Part shown: positions 1,971 through 30,025 of the stretch, in pieces
Position numbering within the stretch: the stretch's first letter is position 1
Layout: each line of letters begins with the position of its first letter
DNA from: Singulisphaera sp. GP187
GTDB taxonomy: Bacteria; Planctomycetota; Phycisphaerae; Phycisphaerales; SM1A02
Reading direction: 5' to 3'
DNA length: 64,000 bases
Assembly: GCA_945868805.1 (NCBI GenBank)
Contig: CAMBMO010000006.1
Span: 1-64,000 of the forward strand
The notes under the pieces: generated by a model
The model's input: the letters and a program-made list of their open reading frames with translations, nothing else
The model's database searches: none
Told to the model about the DNA's origin: nothing
Program-made: the position numbers and the translations under genes

Positions 1971-2414
1971 TCAGAACCGGTCGTCAGCCATCGGATTCGG
2001 AGCGCTTTCGCCTTCGCCTTCTGCGGCATCGCTCGTCTGCCGACGGAGCTTCGCCTCCATGATCAGACGCGCTTGTCCTTCGGCATCCTGCATCTGCTCC
2101 ATTGACAAGTGATCGGCCTTGACGATCATTGCGCGCAACATGCGCTCGGACAGGGTGCAATCGCGTTCAATCGAAACGATGGCCGATGTCGGAGCGGTGA
2201 AGTACGCGAGGAAGTAGACGCCACGCTTATTGCTCTTGATATCGAAGGCGAGCCGTCGCTCGTCCCACTTGACGAGGCTGACAATCTCGCCACCGTGGCG
2301 GGTGATTGATTCACGGACATGCTCGGTCGCAGCGGCAAGATCCGCAGTGACGGCTTGCGGGAAGAGGAACATGCCTTCGTATTGGCGAACGGTAATTTTC
2401 GTAGCAGTCGACAT
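1971..2414 (-). CDS. rpsF: 30S ribosomal protein S6
   Basis: S6 binds 16S rRNA in the platform of the small subunit together with S18. The 147-residue sequence shows the family fold from YEGMFLFPQA through GGEIVSLVKWDERRLAF to YFLAYFTAP. A C-terminal tail of about 35 residues, rich in charged and small residues, is longer than in E. coli S6 without its glutamate tail. An AAGGAG Shine-Dalgarno lies about 7 bases before the ATG. It follows pth by 43 bases in a translation-related operon and is itself followed by a terminator and then ssb. No rpsR (S18) is present beside it, unlike in many genomes. Confidence 0.96.
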   Translation of the reverse strand: MSTATKITVRQYEGMFLFPQAVTADLAAATEHVRESITRHGGEIVSLVKWDERRLAFDIKSNKRGVYFLAYFTAPTSAIVSIERDCTLSERMLRAMIVKADHLSMEQMQDAEGQARLIMEAKLRRQTSDAAEGEGESAPNPMADDRF

Positions 2415-2457
2415 TTGATACTCCTTGGGATTGATTCTTAATGAACTTTCAGAACTG

Positions 2458-3069
2458 TCATGATTGATTTGTGGGTGAATCTCCGACCTTTGAAATCACC
2501 TTCCGATTGAATTGATTCATCGTCGTTGCGAGTCCATCGCGACACCAGACTTCGCAGGCTTTACAAGCCTCCTCGATCCCCTCCTCCGCAAGCGGTTGCT
2601 GATCGGGAGTGAATCGGCCGAGCACATAGTCCGCCTGAGGAACCGACTCGGGCTTGTCGATTCCAATTCGACATCGATTCCACTCGGGAGTGCCGAGCGC
2701 GGAGAGAATGTCGGCGAGCCCGTTGTGGCCTCCAGCGCCGCCGTCGGCACGAACCCGAATCGTTCCGCAAGGAAGATCCAGGTCGTCGGCCACAACGATG
2801 AGATCGCTCGTCGCGTTCATCTTGAAGAATCCGATCGCTTCTGAGACAGCACGGCCCGATCGATTCATGAATGTCGTGGGCTTCAGCAACAAGACCCGTT
2901 GACCGCCGAGTTCGGCTTCAACGGTCAGTCCGCTGAATCGCGCGCGAGGGGAGCTCGCCGCCGAGTCGCCAAAGCGACGCGCCAGTCGATCGACCACCTC
3001 GTACCCGACATTGTGTCGGGTTCGAGCGTATTCGGGACCAGGATTGCCGAGACCAACGATCAACTTCAA
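2458..3069 (-). CDS. pth: peptidyl-tRNA hydrolase
   Basis: Pth releases peptides from prematurely dissociated peptidyl-tRNA and recycles the tRNA. The 203-residue protein starts MKLIVGLGNPGPEYARTRHN and carries the catalytic His19, the conserved Asn9, the DDLDLPCGTIRVR segment and the substrate-binding GGAGGHNGL motif. Length and motif order match the bacterial enzyme. It lies between rplY and rpsF in a same-strand cluster with prs and a GlmU-like gene; the order glmU-prs-rplY-pth is widely conserved in bacteria, which supports the calls of the neighbours. Confidence 0.97.
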   Translation of the reverse strand: MKLIVGLGNPGPEYARTRHNVGYEVVDRLARRFGDSAASSPRARFSGLTVEAELGGQRVLLLKPTTFMNRSGRAVSEAIGFFKMNATSDLIVVADDLDLPCGTIRVRADGGAGGHNGLADILSALGTPEWNRCRIGIDKPESVPQADYVLGRFTPDQQPLAEEGIEEACKACEVWCRDGLATTMNQFNRKVISKVGDSPTNQS

Positions 3070-3125
3070 GCGAAGCTCCTTCGGTAGGAATTTTGGATAG
3101 GAAGTGAACTGGGGCAGTAAGAGAA

Positions 3126-3809
3126 TTACTTCTTCTTGTCCGCCTTCTTGTCGTCGCCCCCACCCGGGGCAGTCGCAGGATCTTCCTTCTTTGCGGTCAG
3201 CACTTCTGGCTCGGCAAGGGTTGCGGCAGTCGTGGCTGCTTCACCGGTCGCTTCTTCAAGCACAACGACGACTCGAGCGAGTGCGGCATGAGGATTGCTC
3301 ACCGCGGTCAATCCCGCGGCCAATTTCAACTGCGCAACGGTCATGATGTCGCCGACCATATTGGTGAGGTCGACTCGGATCGACTCAGGAATGTCCCGCA
3401 CCTTGCAATGAAGTTCGAGCTCGGAGATGTCGTGCGTGAGCACGGCGCCGATGCGCTTCGCGGACTCTGGCGTGCCGATGAAGTTGATCGTGACGCTGAC
3501 CGTCACCATTTCGTCGAGATTGACGCGCGTCAGATCGACATGGACGACATTGTCGCCTTGCCATCCGAACTGCAGTTCCTTGACGAGGCAGGTCTCAGAC
3601 GCACCACCACTCACCTTGATTTCGAAGACATGCAGTCCGCGTCGGAGAGCCGACAGCATCAACTTTTCGTTGACACTGACGGGAGTCGGCTCGCTGCCGT
3701 GTCCATAGATCACCGCCGGGAGTTGTCCCTTCAATCTGAGGCGCTTGGCATAACGGGTTCCCAATCGCTCGCGTGGTTGGGCTTCAAGAACGGGTACTTC
3801 ATGACTCAT
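3126..3809 (-). CDS. rplY: 50S ribosomal protein L25 (TL5/CTC type)
   Basis: L25 of the long CTC type binds 5S rRNA. The 227-residue sequence has the N-terminal L25 domain (EAQPRERLGTRYAKRLR, then LPAVIYGHG) and the C-terminal TL5 domain with its DLTNMVGDIMTVAQLKL segment. The last 50 or so residues are a low-complexity Ala/Glu/Lys tail ending in DDKKADKKK, a common species-specific extension. A clear AGGAG lies about 7 bases before the ATG. It sits between prs and pth in the conserved cluster. Confidence 0.95.
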   Translation of the reverse strand: MSHEVPVLEAQPRERLGTRYAKRLRLKGQLPAVIYGHGSEPTPVSVNEKLMLSALRRGLHVFEIKVSGGASETCLVKELQFGWQGDNVVHVDLTRVNLDEMVTVSVTINFIGTPESAKRIGAVLTHDISELELHCKVRDIPESIRVDLTNMVGDIMTVAQLKLAAGLTAVSNPHAALARVVVVLEEATGEAATTAATLAEPEVLTAKKEDPATAPGGGDDKKADKKK

Positions 3810-3849
3810 GACATATCTCCTAGTTGCAAAGTGGAACTGACGCTAACGC

Positions 3850-4833
3850 TTAGCGCTTGACTCCCGCGCCATGTGTAAACAGCGCTGAAATCGACTGGTC
3901 GTGGTGAATGCGATGCACAGCTTCGCCCAAGAGCGAAGCAACGGACAAAACGGTCAATTTGGATTCGATCGACTTATGACGCTGGCCGGCTGGAATTGTG
4001 TCGGTCGAGATCACGCTGTCGATGGGTGATTCGAGGAGTCGTTCGCAGGCCATTCCGACGAAGAGACCGTGCGTGCAAGCGACATGAACCGCCTTCGCGC
4101 CATGCTCCATAACAACCCGGGCTGCTTCGCACACTGTGCCTGCCGTCGAAATCATGTCGTCGAACATCAGAACCGTTGTTCCATCGACCGAACCGATCAG
4201 GTTCTTGACCGAGACCTTCGATCCGCTATGACGTCGCTTGTCGATGATTGCGAGATCTGCCGCGAGCAAGTTTGCGTACATGTTGGCGACCTTGACATTC
4301 CCAACATCGGGCGAAACGATCGTCAATTCACCAAGCTCTCCGCGTATACGCCTGAAGTGATCGCTGATCACGGGCGCTGCGGTGAGATGGTCGACTGGGA
4401 TGTCGAAGAATCCCTGAATCTGTGCGGCATGCAGATCCATGCAGAGGATGCGCTGCGCTCCCGCGGTCGTAATAAGATTCGCAACGAGTTTGGCGGTGAT
4501 TGGAACGCGTCCTTCGTCCTTGCGATCTTGGCGGGCGTATCCAAAGTAGGGGATCACTGCTGTGATTCGTCGCGCACTCGCTCGACGAAGGCAATCAATG
4601 AACACCAGCAGTTCCATGATGTTGTGATTGACCGGATCGCTGCACGACTGCACGATGTAGCAGTCGCGACCACGCACATCTTCGTCGAGCTTGACGAGGA
4701 GTTCGCCGTCTGGAAAGATGATCGTTTGAGCGAGGCCAATCGGAAGTTCCAGGTGACTACACATCGACTGCGCTAAGGCGCGTCCAGTCGATCCAGCGAA
4801 GATCTTCAACTGTTCTCGGTCGGTTGCACTCAT
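3850..4833 (-). CDS. prs: ribose-phosphate pyrophosphokinase
   Basis: Prs makes PRPP from ribose 5-phosphate and ATP, the entry point to purine, pyrimidine, histidine and tryptophan synthesis. The 327-residue protein shows all the class I landmarks: FPDGELLVKL, AVIPYFGYARQDRK (ATP binding), DLHAAQIQGFFD (metal and ribose-phosphate site), VSPDVGNVKVANMYA and the PRPP loop VLMFDDMISTAGTV. Its start overlaps the stop of the upstream GlmU-like gene by four bases (ATGA), which implies translational coupling. rplY follows after about 40 bases. Confidence 0.97.
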   Translation of the reverse strand: MSATDREQLKIFAGSTGRALAQSMCSHLELPIGLAQTIIFPDGELLVKLDEDVRGRDCYIVQSCSDPVNHNIMELLVFIDCLRRASARRITAVIPYFGYARQDRKDEGRVPITAKLVANLITTAGAQRILCMDLHAAQIQGFFDIPVDHLTAAPVISDHFRRIRGELGELTIVSPDVGNVKVANMYANLLAADLAIIDKRRHSGSKVSVKNLIGSVDGTTVLMFDDMISTAGTVCEAARVVMEHGAKAVHVACTHGLFVGMACERLLESPIDSVISTDTIPAGQRHKSIESKLTVLSVASLLGEAVHRIHHDQSISALFTHGAGVKR

Positions 4834-22609: not shown

Positions 22610-23386
22610 TCAGATTCGATCGCGAATCGACCAGAGATCTTCGAAGAGCGGAGTGAAAAGAGTTGCACGGAGATAGGCGGCGCCAGGCGATCCACCTGTC
22701 CCCATCCGTGCGCCGATGGTGCGTTCGACCATCTTGACATGTCGGTATCGCCACTCTTGAATTCCCTCGTCAAGATCCACCATCAGTTCGCAAAGCATTC
22801 GCGTGTGGGGATGGTTGTGATAAATATCGAGCAGGACCTTTTGGACGATCTCGTTCGACTCCGGGAGTGCCCTCAGTGGTTGAGAGACGAGTGCTTCGGG
22901 AACGGGATGCCCATCGCGTTGTAGTCGCTTCAGGAAAGACTGCCAAAGAGTGATCTCACCCATGCGCTTGACGAGCGATGCGCGCTCGGCGGATCCCTCG
23001 GGGTATCGCTCGATGGCCGCCGCACGCCGATTGCCGAGAATGAATTCGAACTCGCGGAATTGGCAGGACTGAAATCCACTGGCATTCGAAAGCAGCGATC
23101 GAAACGAAAGAAACGAGACAGGACTCATCGTTTCAAGCACATCGATCTGTCCCACCATCGTCTTGAGAATCGTCAGCATCCGCTTGAGAGTGGCGAGCGA
23201 CGTTGGATCGTCGCCGGCTTCGAGCATGCGCTGCAGAAAAACTGCCTCGTGGATCTGCTGCTTGAACCACAATTCGTACACCTGATGAATCACAATGAAA
23301 AGAGTCTCATCGTGTTCGCGTCCTTCCGAAAGCGGGCGTTGAAGGGAGAGCAGTTCCGGAATCTTGAGATAGTCGCCGTAAGTCAT
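22610..23386 (-). CDS. kynA: tryptophan 2,3-dioxygenase
   Basis: TDO is a heme enzyme that opens the indole ring of tryptophan to N-formylkynurenine, the first step of the kynurenine pathway. The 258-residue protein shows MTYGDYLKIPELLSLQ, the distal-site histidine in IHQVYELWFKQ, SGFQSCQFREFEFILGN, the proximal heme histidine in WRYRHVKMVERTIG, and GTGGSPGAAYL. It is a little shorter than typical TDO because it lacks the leader before TYGDYL. The ATG at 23386 lies only two bases after the crtN-like stop, so the two are probably translated from one message. No kynurenine formamidase or kynureninase gene is nearby, which makes the context unusual. Confidence 0.92.
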   Translation of the reverse strand: MTYGDYLKIPELLSLQRPLSEGREHDETLFIVIHQVYELWFKQQIHEAVFLQRMLEAGDDPTSLATLKRMLTILKTMVGQIDVLETMSPVSFLSFRSLLSNASGFQSCQFREFEFILGNRRAAAIERYPEGSAERASLVKRMGEITLWQSFLKRLQRDGHPVPEALVSQPLRALPESNEIVQKVLLDIYHNHPHTRMLCELMVDLDEGIQEWRYRHVKMVERTIGARMGTGGSPGAAYLRATLFTPLFEDLWSIRDRI

Positions 23387-23388
23387 CG

Positions 23389-24981
23389 TCACGAAGACGA
23401 GGATACGGGGATGTTGTCGACACGGTACGAGTCGCTGAATGGGTGATCGATGCCCGCGAGTTCGCAGATGTGCCGCGTCGTGATCGTAGAACTGAGAAAA
23501 ATGACCGGAAGCCCAGATCCAGGGTGGGTCGCGCCGCCAACGAAGTGAAGACCATCCACTCCTGGGTATGTGTGTGGAATCCTGCGGTGGAGCAGTTGGT
23601 CGAAACTGTGCGCGAGGTTGAATGTCGCGCCGTGGTTGATCCGTTCTTTCTGCCAATCGAGGGGTGAGACAAGGCGTTCCACCTCGATCCTGGAACGAAT
23701 GTCGGTGATTCCGAAGACCTCCTCGAGTTGTCCCATCGCATCTTCGCGAAGGCGTGGCATTTCGTGATCCCAATTCAGCGAGCACTGTCCGGGCCGGTTG
23801 TTCGTCACCGGGAGGAGAACGTAGAGCGAACTCTTCCCTGGTGGCGCGAGCGAAGCGTCGAGCGGGGATGGATTGTGGACATAGGCGGATGGATCGTCGC
23901 TGAGTCGACCATCGTGGGAGATATCGCGAAACCGCTCCTCGTACCGACCGGACATGTAAATCGTGTGGTGCGGAAGATCGACTCGGCCTTTCAGCCCCAG
24001 ATAGAGCATGAACGTCGAGCACGAATAACGCCGTGCGTCGATCGCGTCGTTGGTATCGCGTGGTCGCAGATGCGCAGGCACGAGATTCTTGAGCGCCCAG
24101 GTTCCATCCGCATTCACGACGACTCGGTCATGTCCGTAGTGACGCCCGCCAATGAGGACGCCGGTGACACGATTGCCATCGAATGTGATCTGCTCGACCG
24201 GGGAGTTGGTGACGATCTCGACGCCCATTTGTTCGCACGCTTTCGCCATCGCGCCGACAATCGAATTGCACCCTCCACGGGGATGCCAGATTCCGTACTC
24301 GTACTCGATGAACGGCAGAATGCTGAAAAGGCCGGGGCACTCGTAAGGACTCATCCCGAGATACTTCGCCTGGAAGCAGAGGGCGAGGCGCACTTTGGGA
24401 TCTTTGAAAAATCTCCCCATGAGGGAATAGATCGACTCCCACGGTCGAACATGCGCACCGGCGCGAAGTCCATCGAGCGTGATCATGTCGAGCATGCTGG
24501 TGACGCGAGTTCTGAGTAGGGGAGTCAGCCGTTCAAGTTTCGTCCTGTTCGAGTTCATGAACCGCTCAAACGCGGGTCCGTCGTTCGGATCGATCAGCGA
24601 GAGCCGCCGGACCATCTCGTCGACATTCTGAGTCGTGTCGAGAACGGTAGGGCGCCCATTCGCATCGCCGATGATGAGTCGATACATTGGATCGAGTCGA
24701 TGAAGTTCGACGAAGTCAGAGAGCCGGAACCCACAACTGCTAAAGATTTCCTCTAACACATAGGGCATGAGGAAAAAGGTCGGCCCGCAATCGAAAGAGA
24801 AATCGCCGAGCGTGATCCGCCGCGAACGTCCTCCCACGACTGGCTGTGCCTCGTAGACGCGAACAGACATTCCCGCGGCCGCCAGTTGCATCGCGGCGGC
24901 GAGACCACCAGGACCTGCGCCAATCACCGCGACGGATCGACCAGGAGTTAGATTTCGCGGTACGTGATCTCGGCTCGCCAT
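23389..24981 (-). CDS. crtN: CrtN-like C30 carotenoid desaturase (phytoene desaturase family)
   Basis: A 530-residue FAD oxidoreductase. The N-terminal dinucleotide fold is VAVIGAGPGGLAAAMQL; the C-terminal FAD segment is LHFVGGATHPGSGLPVIFLS. Over its length it resembles staphylococcal 4,4'-diapophytoene desaturase more than plant-type CrtI: compare FQAKYLGMSPYECPGLFSI, YSCSTFMLYLGL and LAPPGKSSLYVLLP. It should dehydrogenate a C30 precursor (hydroxysqualene, squalene or dehydrosqualene) to a conjugated polyene at the membrane. I chose ATG 24981; 25050 is possible. It diverges from the aldehyde dehydrogenase operon and leads into kynA. Confidence 0.85.
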   Translation of the reverse strand: MASRDHVPRNLTPGRSVAVIGAGPGGLAAAMQLAAAGMSVRVYEAQPVVGGRSRRITLGDFSFDCGPTFFLMPYVLEEIFSSCGFRLSDFVELHRLDPMYRLIIGDANGRPTVLDTTQNVDEMVRRLSLIDPNDGPAFERFMNSNRTKLERLTPLLRTRVTSMLDMITLDGLRAGAHVRPWESIYSLMGRFFKDPKVRLALCFQAKYLGMSPYECPGLFSILPFIEYEYGIWHPRGGCNSIVGAMAKACEQMGVEIVTNSPVEQITFDGNRVTGVLIGGRHYGHDRVVVNADGTWALKNLVPAHLRPRDTNDAIDARRYSCSTFMLYLGLKGRVDLPHHTIYMSGRYEERFRDISHDGRLSDDPSAYVHNPSPLDASLAPPGKSSLYVLLPVTNNRPGQCSLNWDHEMPRLREDAMGQLEEVFGITDIRSRIEVERLVSPLDWQKERINHGATFNLAHSFDQLLHRRIPHTYPGVDGLHFVGGATHPGSGLPVIFLSSTITTRHICELAGIDHPFSDSYRVDNIPVSSSS

Positions 24982-25048
24982 TGTTGGCTTGAGTGTAGGC
25001 TCGATCGCGAAAGTGTTTGACGATATGCGCTCAATGAGCGGAGAGATC

Positions 25049-26470
25049 ATGGACGAATCAATCGAGAGGATACACGATCGAGCAGTGCGTTCATCGAGCC
25101 ATCAGTCGTCAATCGATTGGATGCGCATTGACGAGCGACTCTCTTGGCTTGAGCGCTTCGGCGCAGCGATCGATCGACATTGCGACGATCTGGTCGCGCT
25201 CATCCGAGATGAAACTGGAAAGTGTTCGTGGGAAGCGCTCGCGAGCGAGATCCTGCCACTCCGTGCGAGCATCCAGTGGCATCTCAGGCACGCGCCAAGT
25301 GTGCTCGCGTCCCAAAGGATTCCTGGAAAACCTTGGTGGTTGCTTGGGCAGTCTCACCGAGTCGTTCGCGTTCCCGTCGGTCGAGTGGCAATCATCGCGA
25401 CTTGGAACTATCCAGTGCAGCTCTTGGGGATTCAAATCGTGCAGTCGGTGATCGCCGGAAACACCACGGTTGTGAAGCCATCGGAGCATGCACCGCGGTC
25501 GCAGGGCTTGCTGCTTCGGATCGCGGCGCAGGACATCGGAGCAGGGGCACTGACGCGAACAGCAGCGACACGTGTTGCTGGCGAACGACTTCTCGATTCG
25601 GAGCGATTCGACCATGTGATCTTCACCGGTTCGACCGAAGTTGGTCGGAGTGTCGCGCGTCGCGCGGCAGAAACGCTGACACCGACGACACTGGAACTTT
25701 CGGGTTGCGATAGTGCGTTCGTTCTTGCCGGCGCCGATCTCAGTTTGGCAGCGAAGAGCATTTGGCAGGCCGTCGTACTCAACGCGGGGCAGACCTGTAT
25801 GGCACCACGGCGAATCATCGTCGAGTCCGCGGTCTATCGAGCATTCCTTGCGCACTTAGCACCATTGGTCGCGGGTGCGAAACCGATGCGGCTGATCTCG
25901 GTCGCGGCTGCGGAGCGAATGGATGCGTGTGTTCAGAGTGCGATCGCGCAGGGCGGTCACTCGCTGAGTGGTGTCGCAGAATCCGCGGTTGCGGATCGTG
26001 TTCGTCCCATTGCAGTCTTCGACTGCCCCCTCACGTGCGATCTCGCAGTCGGAAATCACTTTTCACCGGCGGTCGCAATCGTTCGTGCCGAAGACTTGAC
26101 AAGTGCATCGGCGATTCATTGCAGTTACGCGAAGCACCTGTGCGTCTCGGTCTATGCGAGTCGCTCACAAACGAATCAACTAGCAGCTGACTGCGCTTTC
26201 ATCGCGCAGCTGCGTGCAGGATCAGTGACATTCAATGACTCGATCATTCCAACGGCACATCCGGGCGCGTCGATATCGGGTACGGGCGAGAGCGGATGGG
26301 GATCGACGCGAGGAACCGCGGGACTCCTCGCGTTGACTCGCCCCGTGACAGTCTCGCGCACCAACCGTTGGATTCGAATTCCCGTCGGCGAACCCGATCC
26401 GGGGGCTCAGCGATTTCTCGCGAGAATCCTCGGCGTCCCGATGTCGAGGAAGGCTTGGTCCAAAGGATGA
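25049..26470 (+). CDS. aldehyde dehydrogenase, probable C30 carotenoid aldehyde oxidation
   Basis: The 473-residue NAD(P)-dependent aldehyde dehydrogenase has the cofactor segment IIATWNYPVQL, VVKPSEHAP, FTGSTEVGRS, the general-base glutamate in TLELSGCD (about residue 215) and the catalytic cysteine in NAGQTCMAP (about 250). The C-terminal end includes FNDSIIPTAHPGASISGTGESG. In staphyloxanthin-type pathways an AldH of this kind oxidises 4,4'-diaponeurosporenal to the acid; the adjacent crtP-like gene, overlapping by ATGA, supports that role. ATG 25049 has a GGAG 5 bases upstream; 25025 and 25034 are alternatives. Confidence 0.85.
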   Translation: MDESIERIHDRAVRSSSHQSSIDWMRIDERLSWLERFGAAIDRHCDDLVALIRDETGKCSWEALASEILPLRASIQWHLRHAPSVLASQRIPGKPWWLLGQSHRVVRVPVGRVAIIATWNYPVQLLGIQIVQSVIAGNTTVVKPSEHAPRSQGLLLRIAAQDIGAGALTRTAATRVAGERLLDSERFDHVIFTGSTEVGRSVARRAAETLTPTTLELSGCDSAFVLAGADLSLAAKSIWQAVVLNAGQTCMAPRRIIVESAVYRAFLAHLAPLVAGAKPMRLISVAAAERMDACVQSAIAQGGHSLSGVAESAVADRVRPIAVFDCPLTCDLAVGNHFSPAVAIVRAEDLTSASAIHCSYAKHLCVSVYASRSQTNQLAADCAFIAQLRAGSVTFNDSIIPTAHPGASISGTGESGWGSTRGTAGLLALTRPVTVSRTNRWIRIPVGEPDPGAQRFLARILGVPMSRKAWSKG

Positions 26471-28071
26471 GCTTCGCGAGCACTCCAACAGATCGTCCAT
26501 CGGCGATCATCATCGGTGGCGGACTTGCGGGACTCGCCAGCGCAGTCGAACTGACGACACATGGATTTGCGACGACGATTGTCGAGCGTGGCAATCATCT
26601 TGGCGGGAAGATGAATGTCCTCGAACAAGCAGGATTCAGCTTCGACATGGGTCCGACGATTCTGACGTTGCCCGAGGTCGTGCGGGGAATCATCGCACGA
26701 AGCGGTCGTCGGCCGAATGACTATCTCGATCTGGTGCGCCTCGACCCTCAGTGGCGGTGCTTTTATGACGATGGAACGATCATCGATCTCCGCGACGGTG
26801 TCGATGCAATGGCGAATGCGATGGATCTGCAATTTCCTGGCACGCGGGCGGCTGCTGGTTGGCGCGACTTTCTTGCGTACAGCCGCCGGATGTTTGGATT
26901 GAGCGAGAAAGTCTTTTTCTTCAAGGATCTGGAGAGTGTGATCGATCTCATGCGCCAGTCACCGACGCGCCAACCAGGAGTGCTTCGGGATGTCCTCGCG
27001 ATGCGCGCTTACTCGACCGTTGGTCGGACCGTCCACAAGCATGTTCAAGAACCGCACCTCGCGCAACTCTGCGAGCACTTCCTTCAATATGTCGGATCGA
27101 GCCCGTTTCTTGCGCCTGCAATTCTCTCCTTGATCGCTGCGGCGCAACTCGACCACGGATGTTGGTACGCGATGGGCGGTACTCGATCGGTCGCACGTGC
27201 GCTCGAGCGAATCTTGCGCGAAGATCGTGCCACGATCATCCTTGGTCAGGGGGTCAAACGCATTCTCCATGCGGACAAGCGCGCGACTGGGATCGAATTG
27301 GACGATGGCCGCACATTGAACGCCGATGTCGTTGTGTCGAACTGCGATGTGCAGCGAACCTATCGAGACTTGGTCGGTGGCAAGATCGGTGCGAAGGCAC
27401 ACCGCGCGATCGCATCGAGATACAAGCCCGCGTGTAGCGGATTGGTCATGTATCTCGGACTCGATCGGCAGTACGACCACTTGCTCCATCACGATTTTCT
27501 CTTCAGTGCAGATTCGCGACGGGAGTTCGACGACATCTACCGGCGTGCAATTCCTGCGACCGATCCATCAATCTATCTGTGCGTGCCGAGTCGGACTGAT
27601 TCAGCGCAAGCGCCAACCGGTTGCGAGGCGCTCTACGCGCTCATACACACGCCTCCGCTTCAGCCAGGACAGCGATGGGAGGGCGAGGGTGGAATACTTG
27701 AACAGTACCGGCCAACCGTGATCGAGAAGTTGAAGCGATGTGGCATGCCAGATTTAGAAGAACACATAATCGTCGAGCGTCATCTGACCCCGCAGTCGAT
27801 CGAGCGGTTGTACAACGCCGAAGGTGGAGCGATCTATGGATTGGCATCGCATGGTCGATTGCAGGGTGGATTCAAACCGCGCAATCGAAGCGGCGCGCTT
27901 TCTCGGTTGTACATCGCAGGCGGAAGTGCGAATCCTGGACCAGGAGTGCCGATGGTTCTGATGAGCGGTGTCACGGCGGCGCGCGCTGCATGCGAGGACT
28001 TGTCGATTCCGCTGCGCGGATCGGTCCAAGCAGGAAACCAGCTATGCCCAGATCCGATGCCGACGAGCTGA
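26467..28071 (+). CDS. crtP: CrtP-like C30 carotenoid terminal oxidase (diaponeurosporene oxygenase)
   Basis: A 534-residue FAD protein of the carotenoid desaturase superfamily: IIIGGGLAGLASAVEL near residue 14 and RLYIAGGSANPGPGVPMVLM near the end. Several stretches resemble staphylococcal CrtP rather than CrtN: FLQYVGSSPFLAPAILSL, DPSIYLCVPSRTD followed by APTGCEALYALIHTPP, EGGAIYGLAS. CrtP oxidises the terminal methyl of 4,4'-diaponeurosporene to the aldehyde. The start overlaps the aldehyde dehydrogenase stop (ATGA) and its end overlaps the acyltransferase start by 28 bases. The crtN/crtP labels rest on remembered similarity, not an alignment. Confidence 0.83.
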   Translation: MSFASTPTDRPSAIIIGGGLAGLASAVELTTHGFATTIVERGNHLGGKMNVLEQAGFSFDMGPTILTLPEVVRGIIARSGRRPNDYLDLVRLDPQWRCFYDDGTIIDLRDGVDAMANAMDLQFPGTRAAAGWRDFLAYSRRMFGLSEKVFFFKDLESVIDLMRQSPTRQPGVLRDVLAMRAYSTVGRTVHKHVQEPHLAQLCEHFLQYVGSSPFLAPAILSLIAAAQLDHGCWYAMGGTRSVARALERILREDRATIILGQGVKRILHADKRATGIELDDGRTLNADVVVSNCDVQRTYRDLVGGKIGAKAHRAIASRYKPACSGLVMYLGLDRQYDHLLHHDFLFSADSRREFDDIYRRAIPATDPSIYLCVPSRTDSAQAPTGCEALYALIHTPPLQPGQRWEGEGGILEQYRPTVIEKLKRCGMPDLEEHIIVERHLTPQSIERLYNAEGGAIYGLASHGRLQGGFKPRNRSGALSRLYIAGGSANPGPGVPMVLMSGVTAARAACEDLSIPLRGSVQAGNQLCPDPMPTS

Positions 28072-28877
28072 TCCTTCCGGCTCGGTGGAATCGGCGATTC
28101 ATGTCCTGGTTCTTTTGGTACACGCGTCGACTCTTCGCGAAGAAGTTTCACGCTGTGTTGATGGAGCGAGCGAGCGTCGATGTATCGGCGAGCCTCGAAG
28201 AGTCGCCCGGACCCTTGATCATCGTGATGAATCACTGCGCCTGGTGGGATGTGCTCGTCTTCGTGTGCCTGCACGGCATGTTCGCGTCGACTCGGCGGGT
28301 GATCGCACCAATGGACCGCGCACAACTCAAGCGATTCTCGATCTTTCGCAGAATGGGGGTTTTCGGAATTGACCCCGACGATCCAAGTTCACTTCCAGCA
28401 ATGATTCGTTATGTCGATGGAGAAGTTCGAGTCGATTCTCGTGCGCTCATCTTGCTCAATCCGCAAGGAAAATTTGTCGATGTGCGGAGCACGATCGAAG
28501 TAAGACCCGGAGCCGCGATGATCGCGTCTCGCCACCCGGGTGTTCGGGTCGTCGCAGTCGCCGTCGAGTATGGATTCTGGACCGACGCGAAACCAGAGGT
28601 GTTTCTTCGAATGCGCGAGGTCGCTCCGCCGGTCGATCCTTCCACCCCAGGATGGCAACGTGCGATCATTCAGGCAATGCAGTTGAATGCGACCGAACTT
28701 GCATCATGCGTGATGACAAGAGACCCTTCAGTCTTCGAACGGATCGCAGGAAAGGGCGTAGCACAGATCAATCCGATTTACGACCTTTGGCTCCGCGTGA
28801 CAGGTCGTGGCGTCGCGATCGACTTGTCCAACCGTCGCTTGAATCGGGTCGATCTCTCACCGAGGGATTCGACTTGA
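28044..28877 (+). CDS. PlsC-like acyltransferase, probable carotenoid tailoring
   Basis: The 277-residue protein has the HX4D acyltransferase motif in MNHCAWWD (about residue 63) and the later LLNPQGKF, in the position of the PlsC EGTR block, plus hydrophobic N-terminal residues that suggest membrane association. The family esterifies hydroxyls of glycerophosphates or sugars. Its place between crtP-like and crtQ-like genes suggests it acylates the glycosylated C30 carotenoid, a role taken by the unrelated CrtO in Staphylococcus. ATG 28044 has AGGAAA upstream. Its stop overlaps the next start as TTGA. Confidence 0.82.
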   Translation: MPRSDADELILPARWNRRFMSWFFWYTRRLFAKKFHAVLMERASVDVSASLEESPGPLIIVMNHCAWWDVLVFVCLHGMFASTRRVIAPMDRAQLKRFSIFRRMGVFGIDPDDPSSLPAMIRYVDGEVRVDSRALILLNPQGKFVDVRSTIEVRPGAAMIASRHPGVRVVAVAVEYGFWTDAKPEVFLRMREVAPPVDPSTPGWQRAIIQAMQLNATELASCVMTRDPSVFERIAGKGVAQINPIYDLWLRVTGRGVAIDLSNRRLNRVDLSPRDST

Positions 28878-30025
28878 TCGACATCGCGGTGATCGCTCTC
28901 TCGGTATCGGTCGCCTGCTGTGGAGGCGCCGCAGTCATGGCGACCGCGAATCTGGTGCGTTACCGACGACCGCGAGCAACGATTCAGGAGCCCAGCGAAT
29001 CCGTGTCGCAATTCGCCACTGTCACGGTCTGCATTCCGGCGCGCAACGAAGTGGCGAATATTGAAGAGTGCGTTCGGTCGGTGCTTTCGAGTCGAGGGAT
29101 CGATCTCGAAGTGATTGTGCATGACGATCAGTCGGTCGACGGGACTGGTGCCATCGTTGATCGAATCGCGCTCGAAGATCCGCGTGTTCGTCGATTGGAA
29201 TGTGAGCCACTTCCGCCAGGATGGAACGGCAAACAGTGGGGTTGCGATCGAATGGGTCGCGCCGCGATTGGGAAGTGGGTTCTCTTTACGGATGCTGATG
29301 TGCGTCTCTCGCCTGAGTGCGTTCGCTTGACTCTCGAGACGGCGATCCATGCGAAGTGTGATCTCATCTCGACCATTCCGAGGCAGATCACGGGGACCTG
29401 TATGGAAGATGCGGTCATTCCATTGATTCACTTCATGCTGCTTTCGTACTTGCCGATGGGATCGATGCGCAAGACGACGACTCCCGCCGCGAGCGCAGGA
29501 TGCGGACAGTTCTTGTTCGTGAGTAAAGACGCTTGGGAGAAATCCGGCGGACATGAGTCCTTCCGAAGTTCAATGCACGATGGAATTCAATTACCTCGGT
29601 CGATCAGGCGCGCCGGGGGGAGAACCGATCTCTTTGATGGCACCGAATTGGTCTCGTGCCGAATGTATCGATCGTTTTCACAGGTTTGGCAGGGATTCGC
29701 AAAGAACGCATTCGAAGGATTAGGCTCGATCGCACTGTTGATCTTCATCACTTTCATTCATCTGACGGGACATGTGTTGCCTTGGGTGTGGTTGTTGATC
29801 GCGTGGCCTCTGGATCAACTGTGGACCCTTCCATCGCTCTTGGCAGTGGTGGCGATCGGAATTGCCATCGGTGAACGTGTCGCGCTCGCGCGCCGATTCC
29901 ATCAACGACCTCGAAGTGTCGTGCTTCATCCAATCGGAATACTGTTGATGACCGCGATTCAGTGGCACAGTCTGTGGATCACCATGGCGGGAAGGCGCCA
30001 GTGGAAGGGGCGGGTTCAAGGCTGA
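28874..30025 (+). CDS. crtQ: CrtQ-like family 2 glycosyltransferase
   Basis: A 383-residue membrane glycosyltransferase. It has an N-terminal membrane helix, the GT-A start VTVCIPARNEVANIEECVRS, VIVHDDQSVDGT, LPPGWNGKQWGC, the metal-binding DAD in VLFTDADV (about residue 141), and three or four C-terminal hydrophobic segments. This architecture and the PPGWNGK block match staphylococcal CrtQ, which glucosylates the C30 carotenoid carboxylate. The only suitable start is TTG 28874, overlapping the previous stop as TTGA with GAGGG upstream. It ends 25 bases before the convergent ABC exporter. Confidence 0.83.
   Translation: MIDIAVIALSVSVACCGGAAVMATANLVRYRRPRATIQEPSESVSQFATVTVCIPARNEVANIEECVRSVLSSRGIDLEVIVHDDQSVDGTGAIVDRIALEDPRVRRLECEPLPPGWNGKQWGCDRMGRAAIGKWVLFTDADVRLSPECVRLTLETAIHAKCDLISTIPRQITGTCMEDAVIPLIHFMLLSYLPMGSMRKTTTPAASAGCGQFLFVSKDAWEKSGGHESFRSSMHDGIQLPRSIRRAGGRTDLFDGTELVSCRMYRSFSQVWQGFAKNAFEGLGSIALLIFITFIHLTGHVLPWVWLLIAWPLDQLWTLPSLLAVVAIGIAIGERVALARRFHQRPRSVVLHPIGILLMTAIQWHSLWITMAGRRQWKGRVQG

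Follow-up and report, generated by a model that had tools for sequence, protein, structure and literature searches.

In M. extorquens AM1, the glycosyltransferase (GT) META1p3663 and the lysophospholipid-type acyltransferase META1p3664 are encoded in a cassette with crtP (META1p3665), and deletion and complementation showed that both convert 4,4'-diapolycopenedioic acid into an octadecenoyl-glucosyl ester (PMC10448405). No homologue of CrtO was found in this strain; likewise, the enzyme for the oxidation of the aldehyde to the acid was not found, and two candidates were deleted without effect (PMC10448405). With regard to planctomycetes, a 2025 review attributes all reported compound classes to the class Planctomycetia (PMC12078418). 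No report of a C30 carotenoid from Phycisphaerae was found in the part of the literature looked at, which does not prove that none exists. In this study, a carotenoid gene cluster was analysed in a stretch of 64,000 nucleotides, referred to as the window (positions 1 to 64,000 of contig CAMBMO010000006.1, assembly GCA_945868805.1, Singulisphaera sp. GP187). With a probability of about 0.88, we regard it as a C30 carotenoid cluster of the squalene route that belongs to a planctomycete. This pathway type is already known from other bacteria and is confirmed here; the locus provides a compact set of genes for a putative C30 glycoside-ester carotenoid, with its own aldehyde dehydrogenase (AldH), in a Phycisphaerales-like genome. 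The original prediction, made from the sequence of the window, had named five genes in a staphyloxanthin-type cluster. All five were found in the order and on the strands claimed:

23389-24981, minus strand: crtN, C30 desaturase (squalene/dehydrosqualene); TIGR02734 437.6 bits, cut-off 238.1; CrtN group in the tree
25049-26470, plus strand: aldH, aldehyde dehydrogenase; PF00171 232 bits
26467-28071, plus strand: crtP, C30 carotenoid terminal oxidase; TIGR02734 376.4 bits, cut-off 238.1; CrtP group in the tree
28044-28877, plus strand: PlsC/lysophospholipid-type acyltransferase; PF01553 31.6 bits, cut-off 23; HCAWWD motif
28874-30025, plus strand: family 2 glycosyltransferase (GT2); PF00535 68.7 bits; DAD motif; TTG start

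The cluster (23389-30025) is thus a divergent pair, with crtN on one strand and aldH-crtP-acyltransferase-GT on the other. In the latter group all neighbouring reading frames overlap: aldH and crtP by four bases (ATGA), crtP and the acyltransferase gene by 28 bases, and the acyltransferase and GT genes by four bases (TTGA), where the TTG start of the GT gene overlaps the acyltransferase stop. Gene starts represent a choice among in-frame codons; for crtN the ATG at 24981 was taken, and another in-frame ATG is located upstream at 25050. Because the desaturase profile matches reach 438 and 376 bits (cut-off 238) and the gene order is conserved in titled genome records, the cluster is not a product of chance. 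Promoter-like and terminator-like sites at the locus were no commoner than in shuffled sequence.

To identify the two desaturases, a tree was computed by maximum likelihood from 53 desaturase-like proteins (18 CrtN, 18 CrtP, five CrtI, two CrtD, one HpnE and nine ungrouped). As references served annotated phytoene desaturases of Pantoea, Roseobacter, Sulfitobacter, Paracoccus and Thermus for CrtI, annotated CrtD proteins of Roseobacter and Sulfitobacter, and, on the C30 side, two genes of a Staphylococcus xylosus plasmid, two crtI-family genes of Azospirillum brasilense and the Methylorubrum and Methylobacterium loci. The S. xylosus plasmid carries genes for an acyltransferase, an oxidoreductase, a GT2, a phytoene/squalene synthase and a crtI-family desaturase in this order, which was read as crtO-P-Q-M-N. 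The CrtN, CrtP, CrtI and CrtD groups each formed one side of a branch. The window CrtN was found within a 19-member set (support 100/100) with S. xylosus CrtN outside of it, and the window CrtP fell together with S. xylosus CrtP into the CrtP group (100/99). No further HpnE was found in the loci searched (E 1e-15), and the HpnE outgroup is therefore a single row with a branch of 7.63.

These placements bear directly on the question whether the cluster belongs to a C40 pathway, in which both desaturases would be CrtI/CrtD-like and act on phytoene. Both proteins match the broad crtI family, CrtP matches two CrtD models (323 and 257 bits, well below the respective cut-offs, 580 and 500), the best match of the window CrtN among solved structures is the phytoene dehydrogenase 4dgk, and in blastp this CrtN resembles CrtI (239 bits) as well as S. 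xylosus CrtN (256 bits). However, the CrtI references (99/99) and the CrtD references (100/100) formed groups of their own outside the CrtN and CrtP groups. For CrtP, blastp agrees with the tree (S. xylosus CrtP 318 bits vs Pantoea CrtI 232 bits). In a profile search of the genome only two genes exceeded the crtI-family cut-off, both of them in the cluster, and no gene of the SQS_PSY family was found beyond hpnC and hpnD. A C40 pathway is thus largely refuted and has a very small probability, and the assignments as CrtN and CrtP, previously based on resemblance of segments to the staphylococcal enzymes, are supported by the tree. A third crtI-like gene (2289-3857 on the contig with the handle C40) was considered as a possible CrtI and rejected; its scores of 82 bits against the crtI family (cut-off 238) and 153 bits against the CrtO ketolase model (cut-off 1000) mark the product as a distant flavoprotein.

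The genome comprises 2.50 Mb in 47 contigs and is 95.8% complete, so there is a slight chance that a gene was missed. It contains two SQS_PSY genes, located side by side on contig C5. One encodes HpnC (265 bits, cut-off 250; NCBIfam), the other matches HpnD best (230 bits, cut-off 279; best CrtB model 164 bits), and a third gene downstream on the same strand encodes HpnE (383 bits, cut-off 283). Divergent from this set lies a gene which, judging from its translation, we take to be ispH-like. Neither crtM nor crtB was detected in this 95.8%-complete genome, in which the hpnC/hpnD pair represents all SQS_PSY genes found. Since hpnCDE is present and no further synthase gene was found, the precursor is most likely squalene, from which the C30 skeleton would be derived; the squalene route expected in the original prediction is therefore supported. 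Neither of the two observations that were to have refuted this prediction was made, namely a placement of both desaturases within CrtI/CrtD clades or a genome devoid of squalene synthase genes. A squalene-hopene cyclase is encoded just beyond the window end on the same contig (C6:64172-66250; 570 bits, cut-off 431). Hopanoids should consequently also be fed by squalene, and both hopanoids and carotenoids probably draw on a common squalene pool.

Downstream of aldH, crtP is followed directly, on the same strand, by the genes of the PlsC-type acyltransferase, which possesses the HX4D motif (HCAWWD, residue 64), and of the GT2. In blastp, the window CrtP showed 49-51% identical amino acids to the cluster enzymes of Methylorubrum, Methylobacterium and Azospirillum and 34% to that of S. 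xylosus. The GT likewise was more similar to the enzymes of Methylorubrum (42%), Methylobacterium (39%) and Azospirillum (45%) than to S. xylosus CrtQ (25%, E 1e-21). The acyltransferase showed 30-32% identity to its counterparts in the three former genera and yielded no blastp row, at E values up to 10, with the S. xylosus gene annotated as CrtO-type (129 aa). This negative result applies to the cluster acyltransferase, as no search for a CrtO elsewhere in the genome was made.

A product resembling staphyloxanthin would arise by one-sided oxidation to diaponeurosporenoic acid and formation of an acylated glycosyl ester. The cluster encodes the same reaction types, and its GT is distantly related to CrtQ. 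Such a product is nevertheless unlikely, as no CrtM was found in the genome, the acyltransferase had no match to CrtO, CrtP and GT are far nearer to the Methylorubrum and Azospirillum enzymes, and the product of M. extorquens is a derivative of diapolycopenedioic acid (PMC10448405). The designation "staphyloxanthin-type" was therefore based on the wrong reference. GT and acyltransferase are nearer to the methylobacterial and Azospirillum enzymes; together with the gene deletions in strain AM1, this makes an acyl-glycosyl 4,4'-diapolycopene (di)oate, of the kind formed by Methylobacterium, the most likely product.

It was also considered that acyltransferase and GT are mere neighbours serving membrane lipids or hopanoids. 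The acyltransferase is PlsC-like, the GT matches the hopanoid protein HpnB with 155 bits (cut-off 379), and the squalene-hopene cyclase gene lies on the same contig. This is highly improbable in view of the overlapping reading frames along crtP-acyltransferase-GT, the retention of the cassette with crtP in several phyla (see below) and the published deletions in M. extorquens (PMC10448405).

The distribution of the cluster was analysed in 80 loci from titled records, obtained by means of a CrtP alignment and representing the best 80 of at least 592 confirmed relatives. Presence of a gene was defined as a tblastn match of at least 45 bits, a threshold at which unrelated neighbours may be included among the aldehyde dehydrogenases. 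In 73 of the 80 loci crtP was followed directly by an acyltransferase gene, and in 63 of the 69 loci with enough sequence a GT gene lay within 2.5 kb of crtP. The gene crtN occurred within 7 kb of crtP in 53 of 59 loci (39 on the same strand, 14 divergent); for an aldehyde dehydrogenase gene, 30 of 53 loci had one at a distance of no more than 5 kb. These loci belong to taxa including Methylobacterium, Microvirga, Acetobacteraceae, Granulicella, Verrucomicrobia and several planctomycete groups; the crtP-acyltransferase-GT cassette occurs in records of Alphaproteobacteria, Acidobacteria, Verrucomicrobia and Planctomycetota. The PlsC-like acyltransferase, proposed as a replacement of CrtO that could lead to a different product, indeed bears no visible relation to CrtO; it is, however, not unusual and no novelty, since the cassette is widespread and the step was already demonstrated in M. 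extorquens AM1 (PMC10448405).

Among the matches listed, the nearest relatives of the window CrtP are those of a "Planctomycetia bacterium" (75%), Phycisphaerales bacterium UBA966 (73%) and other Phycisphaerales (68%), all of them planctomycete genomes from metagenomes; this indicates that the source organism is a planctomycete and probably a member of Phycisphaerales. A contig titled Limnohabitans sp. also carries a divergent planctomycete-type cluster (CrtP 62% identical to the window CrtP); this contig may be mis-binned planctomycete DNA. Among 119 genomes drawn evenly from the phylum, including the source genome, 11 contained CrtP matches of at least 289 bits; matches at E <= 0.001 occurred in 96, many of them short and confined to the first residues at the flavin-binding end. 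Five other genomes of the order were part of this draw, and strong CrtP matches were found in G002, G034 and G095 (62-63% identity) and in G111 (46%); G077 yielded no strong CrtP match. The crtP-acyltransferase-GT cassette of G002 and of G034 is located apart from the crtN-aldH pair. G034 additionally possesses a desaturase of the CrtI group (L051, 9111-11179) followed by an HpnD-matching gene; these two may form a C40 route of their own in addition to the C30 genes. G095, a single-contig genome with a full cluster, contains a second CrtP-like gene (L037, 9268-10695; 51% to the window CrtP), and matches to acyltransferase and GT were absent from the 20-kb stretch around it.

In the window AldH, Cys250 and Glu216, which we take to be the cysteine and glutamate expected of an aldehyde dehydrogenase, belong to the residues that are invariant in eight aligned cluster aldehyde dehydrogenases. 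When seven genomes were searched with this alignment, Granulicella (572 bits; itself a row of the alignment) and Botrimarina (395 bits; not a row) gave the highest scores, followed by Microvirga (248 bits) and the best matches of the four methylobacterial genomes (174-192 bits). The use of the cluster AldH as a pointer to the missing Methylobacterium enzyme was discarded, as 174-192 bits is the range of further aldehyde dehydrogenases in the same seven genomes. These scores agree with the published result, in which no methylobacterial homologue was found (PMC10448405). The cluster aldehyde dehydrogenases are concrete candidates for the aldehyde-to-acid step.

By analogy to the characterised relatives, from which we infer every catalytic step, the order of the steps and the product, the pathway may proceed as follows. 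HpnC, HpnD and HpnE would convert farnesyl diphosphate to squalene, which would be shared with the squalene-hopene cyclase. CrtN would then form a diapolycopene-type chromophore from squalene, and CrtP would oxidize the terminal methyl group or groups to the aldehyde, from which AldH would generate the carboxylic acid. Finally, the GT2 would attach a sugar to the carboxyl group and the PlsC-type acyltransferase would transfer a fatty acid onto the sugar. The statement that every step after the C30 precursor is covered is correct with respect to gene families alone.

Several observations weigh against this interpretation. S. xylosus CrtN joins the group of the window CrtN on a long branch and with modest support (92/71), and in blastp the window CrtN shows 30% identity to S. 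xylosus CrtN (256 bits) and 32% to Pantoea CrtI (239 bits), so that pairwise scores alone would not settle its identity. Moreover, most CrtN and CrtP rows in the tree were labelled according to their similarity to the window proteins, for which reason the references carry the inference; the few independent anchors are S. xylosus (gene order and accompanying annotation) and Methylorubrum (resemblance to the published cassette). The score of HpnD lies below the cut-off of its model. The AldH would presumably oxidize the C30 aldehyde to the acid, and M. extorquens forms this acid without a known aldehyde dehydrogenase. With an identity of only about 30% to the methylobacterial enzymes, the acyltransferase may differ in acyl donor and position of acylation.

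Two further genes adjoin the cluster:

22610-23386, minus strand: tryptophan 2,3-dioxygenase (TDO); PF03301 198 bits; TIGR03036 241 bits, model cut-off 391
from 30051, convergent with the preceding GT gene: MsbA-like ABC transporter, below the MsbA cut-off

The span of 22610-30025 originally given for the carotenoid genes hence applies to 23389-30025, while 22610-23386 is a separate gene, the TDO gene, and the stretch contains six genes instead of five. On the same contig, an L-aspartate oxidase gene was observed at C6:67984-69735.

The ATG of the TDO gene is located two bases past the crtN stop. Of the titled loci in which crtN is divergent, 13 comprised at least 4.5 kb on that side; TDO was found behind crtN in six of these, and the other seven were without it. 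It was not found in any of the 65 loci lacking a divergent crtN, a set to which no length filter was applied, and L036, L052 and L053, divergent crtN-aldH stretches from three genomes of the order, are likewise without it. The six TDO-bearing relatives (L054, L056, L058, L060, L062, L121) comprise five titled planctomycetes and one uncultured bacterium, and possible TDO starts in these and in the window range from 28 bases before to 24 bases after the crtN stop. Co-transcription of crtN and TDO is likely.

The window TDO aligns end-to-end with the TDO 2nw7 (E 1e-47), presumably the enzyme of Xanthomonas. Two histidines and a GTGGS segment, which we regard as functional elements of TDO, are kept between the two proteins, and the genome encodes a kynureninase (387 bits, cut-off 246). 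On these grounds the assumption that the protein is TDO-like without being a true TDO was rejected. It is probably a normal enzyme of the kynurenine pathway and not by itself a carotenoid enzyme. A functional pairing with crtN, either as one co-expressed unit for oxygen or light stress or by action of a TDO-like haem protein on a carotenoid intermediate, is very doubtful.

In comparison with known systems, the staphylococcal crtOPQMN cluster (S. xylosus plasmid) shares the kinds of reactions after the C30 precursor (CrtN 30%, CrtP 34% identical) and differs in the CrtM/dehydrosqualene route, in a CrtO without visible similarity and in a GT with only 25% identity. With no crtM found in the genome and a cluster acyltransferase that is not CrtO-like, the locus does not represent a staphyloxanthin pathway sensu stricto. 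According to the respective report (PMC10745290), the crtN-crtNb-crtNc system of Methylomonas likewise combines crtN with an oxygenase gene (crtNb), and an ald gene is described for Methylomonas sp. 16a; there, however, squalene is formed by SQS, and hpnCDE was not detected. Planctopirus limnophila belongs to the same phylum and forms an HpnD-dependent C30 carotenoid via squalene, according to the literature (PMC11958385, PMC12078418, PMC10448405), but it is a member of the class Planctomycetia. Plasmid ABSP7_p3 of Azospirillum brasilense Sp7 carries the same five kinds of genes (CrtP 51%, GT 45% identical); in contrast to the window, its aldehyde dehydrogenase gene is divergent from crtN-crtP-acyltransferase-GT, and crtN is part of the operon. 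M. extorquens AM1 (META1p3663-3665, META1p3670, hpnCDE) also uses the HpnCDE squalene route and possesses crtN, no CrtO was found there, and crtP adjoins genes for a lysophospholipid-type acyltransferase and a GT (PMC10448405). This likeness is taken from the published description, and the sequences compared instead are those of Methylorubrum rhodesianum, in which crtP, acyltransferase and GT occur in the same order with crtN upstream (CrtP 50%, GT 42%, acyltransferase 30% and CrtN 43% identical to the window proteins). Unlike in M. extorquens AM1, crtN in the window is adjacent and divergent, and the aldehyde dehydrogenase gene is located inside the crtP operon.

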